A stretch of DNA of 64,000 bases. Origin: Candidatus Nitrosotenuis aquarius. Its GTDB lineage: Archaea > Thermoproteota > Nitrososphaeria > Nitrososphaerales > Nitrosopumilaceae. The notes under the pieces were generated by a model, which saw nothing but the letters and a program-made list of their open reading frames with translations, did not search any database and had not been told where the DNA came from. Within the stretch, counting starts at the first letter, position 1. Every line of letters begins with the position of its first letter. Location of the stretch: NCBI RefSeq assembly GCF_002787055.1, contig NZ_CP024808.1, positions 646,328 to 710,327 of the forward strand. Direction: 5' to 3'. The position numbers and the translations under genes are program-made. Below, in pieces: positions 52,976 to 58,361 of this stretch.

Positions 52976-53023
52976 GTTGTTACTTTACTACATAATTTTA
53001 TTTTCTTTGTGAAATAACAAGGC

Positions 53024-53097
53024 GGATCCGGGGGGACTCGAACCCACGACCTGACGCTCCGCAAGCGTCCGCACTATCCAAGCTGTGCAACGGACCC
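53024..53097 (-). tRNA. tRNA-Arg (anticodon GCG)
   Basis: On the minus strand the segment folds with acceptor GGGTCCG/CGGATCC, D arm GCAC...GTGC with AGCTTGGATA, anticodon stem GACGC/GCGTC around TTGCGGA (anticodon GCG), and T arm GTGGG-TTCGAGT-CCCCC with one mismatch. The discriminator is G. It decodes CGC and CGT. No intron and no encoded CCA. Confidence 0.95.
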
Positions 53098-53137: not shown

Positions 53138-53845
53138 CTATGCAGTGCTAGTCTCTGCCTTTTTGACAAAGACATAGTGCATTATCAGGCCTGCAATGAT
53201 TCCACCAATGATTGGACCTGCCCAATAAATCCAGTGGAAGTCCCAATAGCCAGATGCCAGTGCCGGGCCCAGAGTCCTTGCAGGATTCATTGATGCACCA
53301 GTCAGTGGAATTCCAACCAAGTGCAGCAAAAATATCATTCCGCCTATTACCAGACCATACATTCCAGCAGGCGCCTTTTTGTGCACGGCAGTCATGAAGA
53401 TCACAGTAACCAAAAAGAACGTAAAGACCAGCTCCAATGCAAAGCCAGACATTGCAGAGTTTCCAAGCAGATCACTCGGTCCTCCTTGCGTTCCAAAGTT
53501 CACCTTGGCTCCAAGTACCGGAAATATCGCCTTTAGTGTAAATGCCGCAATTATGGCACCTATACACTGGAACACGATATACCCAATGCCGTTTACTATG
53601 CTGATTCTTTTAGTAATCATCATGGGTATAGTAACTGCTGGGTTGATGTGCGCACCAGAAACATGGCCAAACGCATAGACCATCAGGCCGATTGCGCCTC
53701 CGTGTGCCAGAGATATAATCAATAATCCTTCCAAATTCAGAGAATCGCCAAACATTGTAGATGACACTATGATAGAAAGCGGTCCAAAGAACACCAGTGC
53801 AAATGTGCACAGTGCTTCTGCAAACCAGGATCTTCCGGATATCAT
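53138..53845 (-). CDS. Aquaporin (MIP family)
   Basis: The 235-residue protein has six helices and both NPA loops: S-G-A-H-I-N-P-A-V near residue 68 and S-M-N-P-A-R-T-L-G-P in the second half. Thr follows the second NPAR rather than the Asp of glycerol facilitators, which favours water selectivity (AqpZ-like). It serves water flow and osmotic balance. It is divergent from the peroxiredoxin gene; 91 bases separate them. Confidence 0.92.
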   Translation of the reverse strand: MISGRSWFAEALCTFALVFFGPLSIIVSSTMFGDSLNLEGLLIISLAHGGAIGLMVYAFGHVSGAHINPAVTIPMMITKRISIVNGIGYIVFQCIGAIIAAFTLKAIFPVLGAKVNFGTQGGPSDLLGNSAMSGFALELVFTFFLVTVIFMTAVHKKAPAGMYGLVIGGMIFLLHLVGIPLTGASMNPARTLGPALASGYWDFHWIYWAGPIIGGIIAGLIMHYVFVKKAETSTA

Positions 53846-53936: not shown

Positions 53937-54392
53937 ATGCTAGCAGAAGGTGACAAGATACCAAGTTTTGAATTAAAAGATGCAGACGGAAATACAGTCA
54001 AATCCTCAGAGTTCAAGGGAAAAAAATTCGTAGTCTATTTTTATCCAAGAGATTTCACACCGGGCTGCACAATAGAGGCAGACGAGTTCTCCAAGGAATA
54101 CAAGAAATTCCAAAAAATAGGCGCAACCATAATAGGAATATCGACTGACAGCGTCGAGTCGCACAAAAAATTCGTAGAGAAAATGGGCATACCATACGTG
54201 TTATTATCAGATCCAGAATCCGAGGTATCAAAGAAATTCGGTGTCTGGGGCAAAAAACAGTTCATGGGAAAAGAATACATGGGAATCCAGAGGAGCACCT
54301 TCCTCATTGACGAAAAGGGAAAAATCTTCAAGGTCTATCCCAGTGTAAAGCCAAGGGGCCATGCAGAAGAAGTCCTAGCTGCCCTGAAATAA
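53937..54392 (+). CDS. bcp: Thiol peroxidase of the PrxQ/BCP type
   Basis: The 151-residue protein has the peroxidatic site Y-P-R-D-F-T-P-G-C-T-I-E with one conserved Cys (about residue 45) and D-E-F-S. The resolving Cys found five residues later in many BCPs is replaced (T-I-E-A-D), so it works as a 1-Cys enzyme or with an external thiol. It reduces hydrogen or lipid peroxides using thioredoxin. The start ATG 53937 is preferred over the GTG one codon earlier. Confidence 0.93.
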   Translation: MLAEGDKIPSFELKDADGNTVKSSEFKGKKFVVYFYPRDFTPGCTIEADEFSKEYKKFQKIGATIIGISTDSVESHKKFVEKMGIPYVLLSDPESEVSKKFGVWGKKQFMGKEYMGIQRSTFLIDEKGKIFKVYPSVKPRGHAEEVLAALK

Positions 54393-54422: not shown

Positions 54423-55280
54423 TTAGAAGCCTTTTGGCAGCGTGCCTTTTGGTTTTGCCGGAGCCGGTGCTGGAGGTGGTGTTGTAGGTTTGAATCCCGC
54501 TGGCAGTGAACCCCTAGTTGAGCCACTTGGTTGTGGTGGCGGTGGTGGAGGTGCAGCCTTTGCCTGTTGTTGCATTCTTGCCAGGTATTCTTTTTCATAT
54601 GCCTCTAGCTGTTCCTTTCTTGACGCATTTCCATTTCCACTAGAACCACTCGATTCTGCTGGTTTTGTTCCAGCTGGCAGTGTGCCTTTTGGCTTTGGTG
54701 GCGGTGGTGGAGCCGTCTGTGTTTGTGCAGAACCAGTTGCTGTTGATGTGATACCGTATCCTGCAAAGTATTTTGTCCTAGGATGGTATGCAAGCTTTTC
54801 TCGTGTTGCAAAGTACTTGTTGGATGGTTGAGTGTATCCTGTTACCTTTGCCTTTTGTAGGTTCCAGTCTGATGTTGGAACGCTTGCTTGTGCAACGTGC
54901 TTGCTTGCAAAGTATCGGTTTCCTGCTGGAGAGTATCCAGTTACCTTTGCTCTATAAGAGTGGAAATCCGATGTTGGTGCGCTTTTCCATTGCTCCCAAA
55001 CTGGGACAACTGCCTCCTCTGGCTTTGGAGCCGGTGGTGGAGGTGTCTGAGCTTGTGGCTTTGGTGCTGGCGGCGGAGGTGTTGGCTTGGTTCCAGCCGG
55101 TAGCGTTCCCTGTGGTTTTGCAGGTGCCGGAGCTGGTGCCGGGGCCGGCTTGGGGGCCGGCGGTGGCGTAGTTACTTGCGGTTTTGATTCAAATTGACTA
55201 GATAATTTTGCAAGCTTTTCTTCTAATTCTGCAATCTTTGCTTCTAAATCCTTTTTAGTTGACTTAGTAGTTCCAGCCAT
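54423..55280 (-). CDS. Proline-rich protein with N-terminal coiled coil and internal repeats (paralog A)
   Basis: With the ATG ending at 55280 the product has 285 residues. Residues 6-30 are a coiled coil (D-L-E-A-K-I-A-E-L-E-E-K-L). Proline/alanine-rich linkers (40-105 and 195-285) flank a central domain (about 108-185) made of two repeats that share P-T-S-D, A-K-V-T-G-Y and N-K/R-Y-F-A, and a third partial T-K-Y-F-A. G-T/S-L-P-A/K-G motifs occur four times, including the C-terminus G-T-L-P-K-G-F. No signal or helix, so it is cytosolic. The central part is encoded by a 378-bp segment identical to one in the next gene. Function unknown. Confidence 0.78.
   Translation of the reverse strand: MAGTTKSTKKDLEAKIAELEEKLAKLSSQFESKPQVTTPPPAPKPAPAPAPAPAKPQGTLPAGTKPTPPPPAPKPQAQTPPPPAPKPEEAVVPVWEQWKSAPTSDFHSYRAKVTGYSPAGNRYFASKHVAQASVPTSDWNLQKAKVTGYTQPSNKYFATREKLAYHPRTKYFAGYGITSTATGSAQTQTAPPPPPKPKGTLPAGTKPAESSGSSGNGNASRKEQLEAYEKEYLARMQQQAKAAPPPPPPQPSGSTRGSLPAGFKPTTPPPAPAPAKPKGTLPKGF
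54693..55070. repeat. 378-bp perfect direct repeat, copy 1
   Basis: This segment is identical, base for base by eye, to 55506-55883 (offset 813). It covers the central repeat domain and adjacent proline linker of paralog A. Sequence on both sides differs between the copies, so the identity ends abruptly. Confidence 0.95.
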
Positions 55281-55466
55281 GTGTTTTTTCTGACACCTCA
55301 ATAGTTTATTTACATTTTGTTCCCGGTTGCCAAAACAATTAGATTATTTTTTGCCAAACCGCATAATTTTGCAACAATAAAGCCAAAAAACCGCAATTCC
55401 AGATTTGGAAGCCGATCTATACAACATAGAATTTATTCAAAAATATGTAAGAAAATATGGAATTTT

Positions 55467-56117
55467 TTAGAAGCCTTTTGGCAGCGAACCACGAGAAGGA
55501 TTCTTCTTTGGTGGCGGTGGTGGAGCCGTCTGTGTTTGTGCAGAACCAGTTGCTGTTGATGTGATACCGTATCCTGCAAAGTATTTTGTCCTAGGATGGT
55601 ATGCAAGCTTTTCTCGTGTTGCAAAGTACTTGTTGGATGGTTGAGTGTATCCTGTTACCTTTGCCTTTTGTAGGTTCCAGTCTGATGTTGGAACGCTTGC
55701 TTGTGCAACGTGCTTGCTTGCAAAGTATCGGTTTCCTGCTGGAGAGTATCCAGTTACCTTTGCTCTATAAGAGTGGAAATCCGATGTTGGTGCGCTTTTC
55801 CATTGCTCCCAAACTGGGACAACTGCCTCCTCTGGCTTTGGAGCCGGTGGTGGAGGTGTCTGAGCTTGTGGCTTTGGTGCTGGAGCTGGTGCTGGTTTCA
55901 TTCCTGCTGGCAGAGTTCCTTGCGGTTTTGTTGTTGGTGCTGGTGCTGGTTTTGGTGCTGGTGGCGGTGTTTGAACTTGTGGCTTTGGAGCCGGTGGTGG
56001 TGTTTGCGTTGTTGGTTTTGGTGCTGATTCTATTTGATTAGCCAATTTTGCAAGCTTTTCTTCTAATTCTGCAATTTTTGCTTCCAAGTCTTTTTTAGTG
56101 GATTTAGCACTAGACAT
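55467..56117 (-). CDS. Proline-rich protein with N-terminal coiled coil and internal repeats (paralog B)
   Basis: The 216-residue protein has the same plan as paralog A: K-S-T-K-K-D-L-E-A-K coiled coil (5-30), a longer P/A/Q linker (40-95) with G-T-L-P-A-G-M, the identical central domain (about 108-185), and a short end closing with S-R-G-S-L-P-K-G-F. It lacks the second half of the A linker. The upstream region (56118-56228) and the 186-base gap between the two genes look like separate promoters. It should form homo- or hetero-oligomers with paralog A through the coiled coil; that is inference. Confidence 0.78.
   Translation of the reverse strand: MSSAKSTKKDLEAKIAELEEKLAKLANQIESAPKPTTQTPPPAPKPQVQTPPPAPKPAPAPTTKPQGTLPAGMKPAPAPAPKPQAQTPPPPAPKPEEAVVPVWEQWKSAPTSDFHSYRAKVTGYSPAGNRYFASKHVAQASVPTSDWNLQKAKVTGYTQPSNKYFATREKLAYHPRTKYFAGYGITSTATGSAQTQTAPPPPPKKNPSRGSLPKGF
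55506..55883. repeat. 378-bp perfect direct repeat, copy 2
   Basis: This is the second copy of the segment at 54693-55070, within paralog B. Perfect identity including synonymous positions means recent duplication or ongoing gene conversion. Confidence 0.95.
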
Positions 56118-56228
56118 GTGACTTTGGTGCCCGTTGCGGGGTTTATTTACATTTGGGTAAATCTCAGACGGGCAAATCTGATGATAAAGTAGATCAAATT
56201 TAATACCACCATCAAGCTATAGACCCCA

Positions 56229-56918: not shown

Positions 56919-58361
56919 TTGCCAATCGAAGACGTCGCAGAACTCATATCAGCACTTGAAAAAGCAGGCGAGTTAAAGCGAATAAAGACGCAGGTCGATT
57001 CCGATTTGGAGATTGCTGAAATCCTAAGGCGTGTAATGTATGCAAACGGCCCAGCAGTACTATTTGAGAACGTCAAGGGCTATGACATGCCGGTATTGGC
57101 AAATGCGTTTGGCTCGATAAAGCGACTGCAAATCGGATTGGAAATGGACGACTTTACCGAGATTGGCCAAAGAATAGTAGACATGACAAAGATGGAGGTG
57201 CCATCAGGATTTCTCAACAAGATCAAAAAGCTTCCAGAACTATCAAAAATGGGCGAAGTATTTCCCAAATTAGAAAAGTCCGGCCCGGTAACCGAAGTAA
57301 TCGATGAAAACCCATCATTTAGCAAGATTCCAATTTTGAAAACCTGGCACAAGGATGCAGGAAGATTCATCACGCTAGGACTAGTCGCAACAAAGCACCC
57401 AGAGACAGGAGTTAGAAACCTTGGAGTGTACAGGATGCAAATCATAGATGATACCCATGCACTGATGCACTGGCAAAAGCACAAGCGCGGAGCACACCAC
57501 GGAGACATTTCAAAGGAAAGAGGAGAAAAGATTCCAGCCGCAATCATAATTGGCGCAGAGCCCGCAACGGTGTTTTCTGCAATTGCTCCGGTGCCAGAGG
57601 GATTGGACAAGTATCTCTTTGCAGGTATAACTCGACAAAAGGGAATCAAGACCGTACAATGCAAGACACAGGATTTGGAAGTTCCTGCAAATGCGGAAAT
57701 CGTCCTGGAAGGATATGTCGACCCATCCGACATTAGAGACGAGGGGCCGTTTGGTGATCACACTGGATACTACACGCCAGTTGAGCCATACCCCACATTT
57801 ACCCTAACTGGAATAATGAGAAGGCAAAAGCCAGTCTATCTTACTACAATAGTTGGCAAGCCGATTTTAGAAGACGCCTATGTCGGCAAAGTAATTGAAA
57901 GATCATTTCTGCCGCTAATCCGCATGTTCCATCCTGAAGTGGTAGACTTTGCAATGCCGGCTGCAGGATGGTTCCAGGGAATGGCAATCATATCAATCAA
58001 AAAGCGCTATCCAGGCCAGGCAAAAAAAGTCATGATGGGATTGTGGGGTACAGGACAGCTGGCACTAACAAAAATGTTCATCGTAGTGGATGATGACATC
58101 AACGTCCATGATTTCAATGACGTAATCTGGGCCATTACAACCCGTGTAGATGCTGCGCGCGACTGTGTTATTATCAACAACACCCCAACTGACACGCTGG
58201 ATCCTGCATCGCCATTGGTGAACTTTGGCTCCAAGCTGGGAATTGATGCAACACAAAAAACCTGTGAGGAAGGATTCACCAGGGAAATCCAGGAAAAGGT
58301 TGCAGTCGACGAGCCAACCAAGAATCTGGTTGATTCCAAGTGGTCTAGCTATGGATTATAG
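56919..58361 (+). CDS. UbiD family decarboxylase
   Basis: The 480-residue protein shows the UbiD signatures: R-R-V-M-Y-A-N-G-P-A-V-L-F-E-N-V, the catalytic-site E-x2-R region around D-I-R-D-E-G-P-F-G-D-H-T-G-Y-Y, and M-F-H-P-E-V-V-D. It needs prenylated FMN made by a UbiX-type enzyme not present here. Given the MqnC gene next to it, the likely substrate is 6-carboxy-1,4-dihydroxynaphthalene (menaquinone pathway), although a general aromatic acid is possible. The start at TTG 56919 lies close to a TATA-like element (ctttatacaac). Confidence 0.9.
   Translation: MPIEDVAELISALEKAGELKRIKTQVDSDLEIAEILRRVMYANGPAVLFENVKGYDMPVLANAFGSIKRLQIGLEMDDFTEIGQRIVDMTKMEVPSGFLNKIKKLPELSKMGEVFPKLEKSGPVTEVIDENPSFSKIPILKTWHKDAGRFITLGLVATKHPETGVRNLGVYRMQIIDDTHALMHWQKHKRGAHHGDISKERGEKIPAAIIIGAEPATVFSAIAPVPEGLDKYLFAGITRQKGIKTVQCKTQDLEVPANAEIVLEGYVDPSDIRDEGPFGDHTGYYTPVEPYPTFTLTGIMRRQKPVYLTTIVGKPILEDAYVGKVIERSFLPLIRMFHPEVVDFAMPAAGWFQGMAIISIKKRYPGQAKKVMMGLWGTGQLALTKMFIVVDDDINVHDFNDVIWAITTRVDAARDCVIINNTPTDTLDPASPLVNFGSKLGIDATQKTCEEGFTREIQEKVAVDEPTKNLVDSKWSSYGL

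Follow-up and report, generated by a model that had tools for sequence, protein, structure and literature searches.

Why would an archaeal cell carry two neighbouring genes that share an identical middle part and differ in their ends and promoters? This question was raised by a locus in a 64,000-nt stretch of the Candidatus Nitrosotenuis aquarius genome (contig NZ_CP024808.1, positions 646,328 to 710,327), hereafter called the window. The Nitrosopumilaceae, to which this organism belongs, rank among the ocean's most numerous cells, and two aspects of their biology are open, namely how a compact nucleoid is organised with very little histone and how the form of a thin rod is kept up. The gene pair was found in all sampled genera at a fixed position, with dedicated promoters and a core kept identical by gene conversion, and was thus a concrete and testable candidate for a role in the nucleoid or in cell shape. 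A shared middle part copied between the genes, together with distinct ends and promoters, suggested two versions of one cell-organising scaffold.

The short isoform gene (216 aa) was called at 55467..56117 and the long isoform gene (285 aa) at 54423..55280, both on the minus strand, as neighbours with a gap of 186 nt between them. For the long gene, the ATG at 55280 (MAGTTKST...) was preferred over a TTG at 55301 because the same start was seen across relatives. Both proteins began with a short basic N-terminus and a predicted coiled coil (DLEAKIAELEEKLAKL), and continued with linkers rich in Pro and Ala, a repeated core, and a Pro-rich end. In the short isoform, the N-terminal coiled coil was followed by a Pro-rich linker with one GTLPAG motif, the core, and a C-terminal RGSLPKGF; the long isoform had the same layout plus a second helix (SRKEQLEAYEKEYLARMQQQ) and extra GTLPAG, GSLPAGF, and GTLPKGF motifs. 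Orthologues of the short copy were recovered in all 23 parsed pairs. A sequence-only reading of this DNA had described paired paralogs with a coiled coil, a Pro/Ala linker, a repeat core, and a Pro-rich end. Both open reading frames were present with this plan, and the observation of the gene pair is confirmed in a stronger form than originally stated; the identical tract of 378 bp, the GTLPKGF-type motif, the promoter element restricted to the pair, and the near-universality in the Nitrosopumilaceae were absent from that reading.

Self-alignment resolved the core into two units of 33 residues and a partial third, with 14 of the 33 residues identical between the units. Unit 1 (APTSDFHSYRAKVTGYSPAGNRYFASKHVAQAS) was located at 54882..54980 in the long gene and 55695-55793 in the short gene, and unit 2 (VPTSDWNLQKAKVTGYTQPSNKYFATREKLAYH), followed by the partial unit PRTKYFA, at 54783..54881 and 55596-55694 respectively, all on the minus strand. 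The self-alignment at an offset of 33 scored 85; the scores of 5000 shuffles averaged 19.6, peaked at 43, and never reached 85. The tandem units of ~30 residues proposed earlier have a period of exactly 33 residues, and the repeat is well outside shuffle expectation. When 12 rows spread over the Nitrosopumilaceae were aligned, 21 of the 86 core positions were invariant, with Y, F, W, N, K, and R prevalent among them. Between species, the core dN/dS was 0.07-0.27, which shows purifying selection on the core.

A short motif, G-(T/S)-L-P-(K/A)-G-(F/T/M), was present in 1-7 copies per protein in nearly all members, and formed the C-terminal end of nearly every isoform outside genus g19, in which it was missing or altered. 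In the window pair, the motif scan placed GTLPKGF-stop of the long protein at 54423..54446 and GSLPKGF-stop of the short protein at 55467-55490, both on the minus strand. Motif counts were made by genome search, and a pattern covering GTLPKGF- and GSLPAGF-type sites was confined to the two pair genes when the whole 1.70-Mb genome was searched. In the single-copy genus g2 (L079:4730-5875, L080:5029-6273), 5-6 tandem spacer copies with GTLPKGM or GTLPKGT lay ahead of the core, and the motif number in these spacer proteins was strongly variable. Genus g9 kept the locus with the core reduced to its unit-2/3 part, and the whole module was sometimes duplicated inside one gene; at three loci (L103:4760-5899, L104:4667-5368, and L105:4814-5608) the minimal core was doubled within one gene, its two copies being separated by GTLPAGMKP repeats.

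The window pair lacked cysteine, had a pI of about 10 and net charges of +17 and +20, and ranked 2nd and 4th in charge per residue among the 61 ORFs of the window. Across relatives, the core charge was +4 to +9. Many Nitrosopumilus-type genomes had PAE-rich linkers and an acidic C-terminal helix in the long form, which lowered its net charge to +7 to +15. In genus g19 the N-terminal tail was lengthened by arrays of (RKTA)n, (RKPT)n, or (KRTTT)n (L126:1-429, L112:4611-5570, L076-L078), which resembled histone H1 tails. By codon adaptation, the short gene came 2nd among the 61 ORFs of the window, directly below ribosomal proteins, and the long gene was ordinary (25th of 61). AF2 modelling of the long protein was confident for two helices alone, at residues 9-31 and 221-241 (pLDDT about 77-86); the pLDDT was 54 at full length and 43-50 in the core, also when the core was modelled by itself, and the pTM was 0.15-0.17, all from shallow alignments of 9-12 rows. 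Both proteins were predicted to be mostly unstructured outside the coiled-coil segments, and what had been called a central domain is, based on the low core pLDDT from a shallow alignment, probably not a globular fold.

Searches against known families bore out the earlier statement that no described family has this plan. The best Pfam scores were 12-15 bits against cut-offs of 20-34, NCBIfam matches stayed below 10 bits, PADLOC and a PDB sequence search gave no match, and Foldseek with the full-length model of the long protein found no PDB match. Only marginal matches (E about 0.0014-0.0015) were obtained from PHROGs, to families of unknown function and in low-complexity segments. No relative was found on viral contigs or plasmids, Rfam returned nothing at the pair, and no mention of such proteins was found in the literature searched. 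The family appeared to be undescribed, Nitrosopumilaceae-wide, and dedicated. Other identities were considered and rejected: a virus-derived protein, because the PHROG matches were marginal and no relative lay on viral contigs; a J-domain, hinted at by 'LAYHPADK', which had no supporting Pfam match and no predicted helical hairpin; and a Cdv/ESCRT adaptor acting through the MIT domain of CdvC, since the MIM2 regular expression was absent from most members and from both window proteins.

The core was found by protein search in 153 of 200 Nitrosopumilaceae genomes, covering 22 of 22 sampled genera, and a profile search of 349 genomes drawn from the phylum gave no core match outside the Nitrosopumilaceae. 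The pair is almost universal in this family. The sequence-only reading had proposed that repeats conserved across relatives would support a dedicated function and that homologues missing from related genomes would speak against it; in support of such a function, all 22 sampled genera were positive and the core was under purifying selection, with a partial core in genus g9.

Each gene was preceded by its own promoter element, located about 24-39 nt upstream of the ATG and conserved across genera: CCAAATGTAAATAAAC at 56141..56156 for the short gene and CAAAATGTAAATAAAC at 55304..55319 for the long gene, both on the minus strand. The sequence AAATGTA(A/C)ATAAAC, which across genera lay about 24-38 nt ahead of the start codon, had exactly two zero-mismatch sites in the whole genome, one ahead of each pair gene, and in the more complete Nitrosopumilus-type genomes it typically occurred twice, the C form at the short gene and the A form at the long gene. 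Its position would fit a TATA/BRE-type promoter of a leaderless transcript. A regulon sharing the element was rejected, since without mismatch the genome had sites only ahead of the two pair genes. One-mismatch sites included one ahead of a glyceraldehyde-3-phosphate dehydrogenase-like gene (archaeal type, identified by eye), so the element may be a strong general promoter of the TATA/BRE type rather than the mark of a regulon.

The two genes were compared with each other at the DNA level. A tract of 378 bp, at 54693..55070 in the long gene and 55506..55883 in the short gene (both minus strand), was aligned with 0 differences, and the remaining aligned coding columns were 76% identical. When the columns of the aligned pair were permuted, no identical run exceeded 112. 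The same comparison over 270 bp of core in 23 genomes with parsed pairs gave 0 differences in 16 pairs, 3 in 2, and 12-24 in 5. Mean core DNA identity was 99% within a genome versus 67% between genomes, and the coiled coil had a mean identity of 79% within a genome. In a core tree of 21 pairs, copies from the same genome were sisters in 18 of 21. In a tree of promoter and N-terminus from 21 pairs, none of the same-genome copies were sisters and grouping was by isoform, with 3 changes of isoform label compared with 14.3 in shuffles. Paralogues were thus more alike than orthologues, and the tract was sharp and its flanks diverged, as expected of concerted evolution; the pair is a case of gene conversion of the core, with the 378-bp tract as the conversion tract and the two isoforms kept apart. 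Since the cores grouped by genome and the promoters and N-termini by isoform, the isoforms are old, their ends and promoters have been kept distinct, and homogenisation of the core has recurred. The short clade of genus g1 was nested within the long clade, indicating that duplication may have occurred more than once, or that conversion blurs it. Genus g2 and some others had a single copy. Tandem flagellin genes offer a likeness, in that adjacent paralogues are homogenised by conversion in the shared structural part and keep variable parts distinct; unlike flagellins, the pair does not look secreted or filament-forming by sequence, a second helix makes one isoform longer than the other, and each gene has a conserved promoter of its own.

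To account for these features, we tentatively favour a scaffold that would be oligomeric and multivalent and would bind a polyanion, in all likelihood nucleic acid, through one binding core shared by two isoforms. The short and long isoforms would together make up one abundant cytosolic scaffold, whose chains would be oligomerised by the N-terminal coiled coil, with a second helix in the long form. The long Pro/Ala spacers would display the cationic, aromatic-rich 33-residue units and the G-T/S-L-P-K/A-G-F motif many times, the core and the Lys/Arg-rich N-terminal tail would bind the polyanion, most likely nucleoid DNA or RNA, and the oligomer would bridge and organise it. A shared core with separate ends suggested a common partner for the two isoforms, or their co-assembly, whereby conversion would keep the cores identical and selection would keep the promoters and ends different. 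A more far-reaching reading is possible but doubtful, namely that throughout the family the nucleoid or cytosol is organised by this so far undescribed pair, with two co-assembling isoforms, a partner-binding core held identical by recurrent gene conversion, and promoters unique in the genome.

Three observations led us to judge nucleic acid the likeliest partner: the tails resembling those of H1, separate promoters of the kind usual for nucleoid proteins, and the very low histone content of N. maritimus. According to PMC7613761, this histone makes up below 0.06% of the proteome, and known archaeal nucleoid proteins are usually encoded in single-gene operons. By criteria adapted from that source (small, basic, single-gene operon), both window proteins were small (216 and 285 aa), basic (pI 10), and expressed from separate promoters. 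The pair resembles the candidate archaeal nucleoid proteins of PMC7613761, which were predicted from abundance, charge, and single-gene operons, in being basic, in its length (<290 aa in the window pair), in its own promoters, and in the codon usage of the short gene, which suggests high expression; it differs in not being reported in the text consulted there. Against a nucleic-acid partner, no known DNA- or RNA-binding domain was found, and the papers searched yielded no data on binding, localisation, or abundance. Membranes or acidic filaments are further possible targets of basic scaffolds, which counts against a reading specific to nucleic acid. The lower net charge of the long form in many Nitrosopumilus-type genomes, the ordinary codon bias of the long gene, and one genome without the core (G098, see below) also count against the favoured explanation. 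Histone H1-like and Lys-rich nucleoid proteins include the bacterial Hc1/Hc2 and AlgP-type tails, and the pair would share with them strongly basic, low-complexity Lys/Arg-Thr/Ala-Pro tails, the lack of a stable fold, and presumed polyanion binding. Unlike these proteins, to which it has no sequence match, the pair has a coiled coil, a conserved aromatic 33-residue repeat, and an LPKGF motif, and large tails are confined to genus g19 of its family. The H1-like, flagellin, and tau-type resemblances are analogies and not family membership.

The tau-type resemblance underlies a different reading, in which basic, Pro-rich, disordered repeats would line an acidic filament and help to set the thin-rod shape. 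The length of the repeats, the basic charge, the Pro-rich flanks, and the disorder all fit, as does the restriction to one family whose cultivated members are thin rods; one clade is one phylogenetic event, so this correlation with shape carries little weight. Eukaryotic tau/MAP-type proteins are likewise basic and intrinsically disordered, with Pro-rich flanks and tandem repeats slightly longer than 30 residues; no homology was detected, and the pair differs from them in carrying a coiled coil. Also counted in favour was that cell constriction and shaping in Thaumarchaeota are unexplained (PMC8970359). However, the conserved neighbourhood contained no filament protein, the CdvC-binding MIM2 motif was absent in most members, and the H1-like tails of genus g19 suit nucleic acid better. 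Given these two absences, the adaptor half of the earlier suggestion of a scaffold or cytoskeletal adaptor found no specific support, and the scaffold half fits the anatomy. Judged by charge and tails, nucleic acid is at least as good a candidate as the cytoskeleton, and we regard a cytoskeletal role as possible but unlikely.

A condensate associated with RNA or ribosomes, serving for example storage or starvation, would draw on the same composition, with Tyr, Arg, and Lys acting as stickers between Pro-rich spacers and phase-separating with RNA. The sticker-and-spacer composition, the lack of a fold, the coiled coils, and the high charge are all consistent with it. It appeared improbable nevertheless, as the proteins had no RNA-binding domain and no RG/RGG repeats, and nothing in the conserved neighbourhood was related to RNA.

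The identity of the cores could also have arisen from plain tandem duplication, with frequent recombination between adjacent repeats and no functional demand for a shared core. Adjacent direct repeats convert readily, and the pairs of genus g19 and two other genomes differed by 12-24 nt in 270. In one genome (G098, L118:3121-3582, single contig) a short-type N-terminus ran directly into a long-type C-terminus and no core was left, which is the product expected from a deletion between both genes. This core-less fusion reflects either a real deletion or a collapse during assembly; should the assembly be correct, the core would not be essential. On the other hand, in many lineages conversion reached no further than the core and the linkers next to it, and the ends and promoters stayed isoform-specific, the cores at L057 were identical although the copies were 1.9 kb apart, and the pair was retained across many genera. 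Recombination without functional demand was thus considered quite unlikely.

The order of genes around the pair was fixed: aquaporin, peroxiredoxin, long gene, short gene, UbiD-like decarboxylase, radical-SAM enzyme, and aldolase-like protein, all named by eye. In the window, the conserved neighbours included an aquaporin-like (MIP) channel at 53138..53845 (minus strand), a Bcp-type peroxiredoxin at 53937..54392 (plus strand, convergent with the long gene), and a UbiD-like decarboxylase at 57036..58361 (plus strand). That the pair acts together with the peroxiredoxin or the aquaporin under oxidative or osmotic stress is highly improbable, for although the aquaporin, peroxiredoxin, and pair kept their order family-wide, single-copy genomes included, the proteins examined contained no cysteine and the pair was convergent with the peroxiredoxin gene, with separate promoters. 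A tRNA gene (Rfam RF00005, 50 bits) lay just downstream of the aquaporin-like gene at 53023-53097 (minus strand).

We also inspected the genomes in which the family was scored absent. The core match was lacking or truncated in 14 genomes, and in several that were followed, the contigs ended at the pair. N- or C-terminal pieces of the family were found at contig ends in at least 7 contigs; draft assemblies breaking at the pair were seen at the contig ends L119, L121-L124, L126, and L127. Loss of the family from these genomes was rejected, as most cases were contigs ending at the pair; the clear exception was the core-less single contig of G098. The perfect repeat probably breaks short-read assemblies at this point, with the result that the family is falsely scored absent in many assemblies, and genes that look absent in many drafts may explain why the pair has been overlooked. 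In one contig from a metagenome-assembled genome (L039:249-1021), unit 1 of the long gene ran into unit 2 in another reading frame, probably because the repeat had collapsed in assembly.
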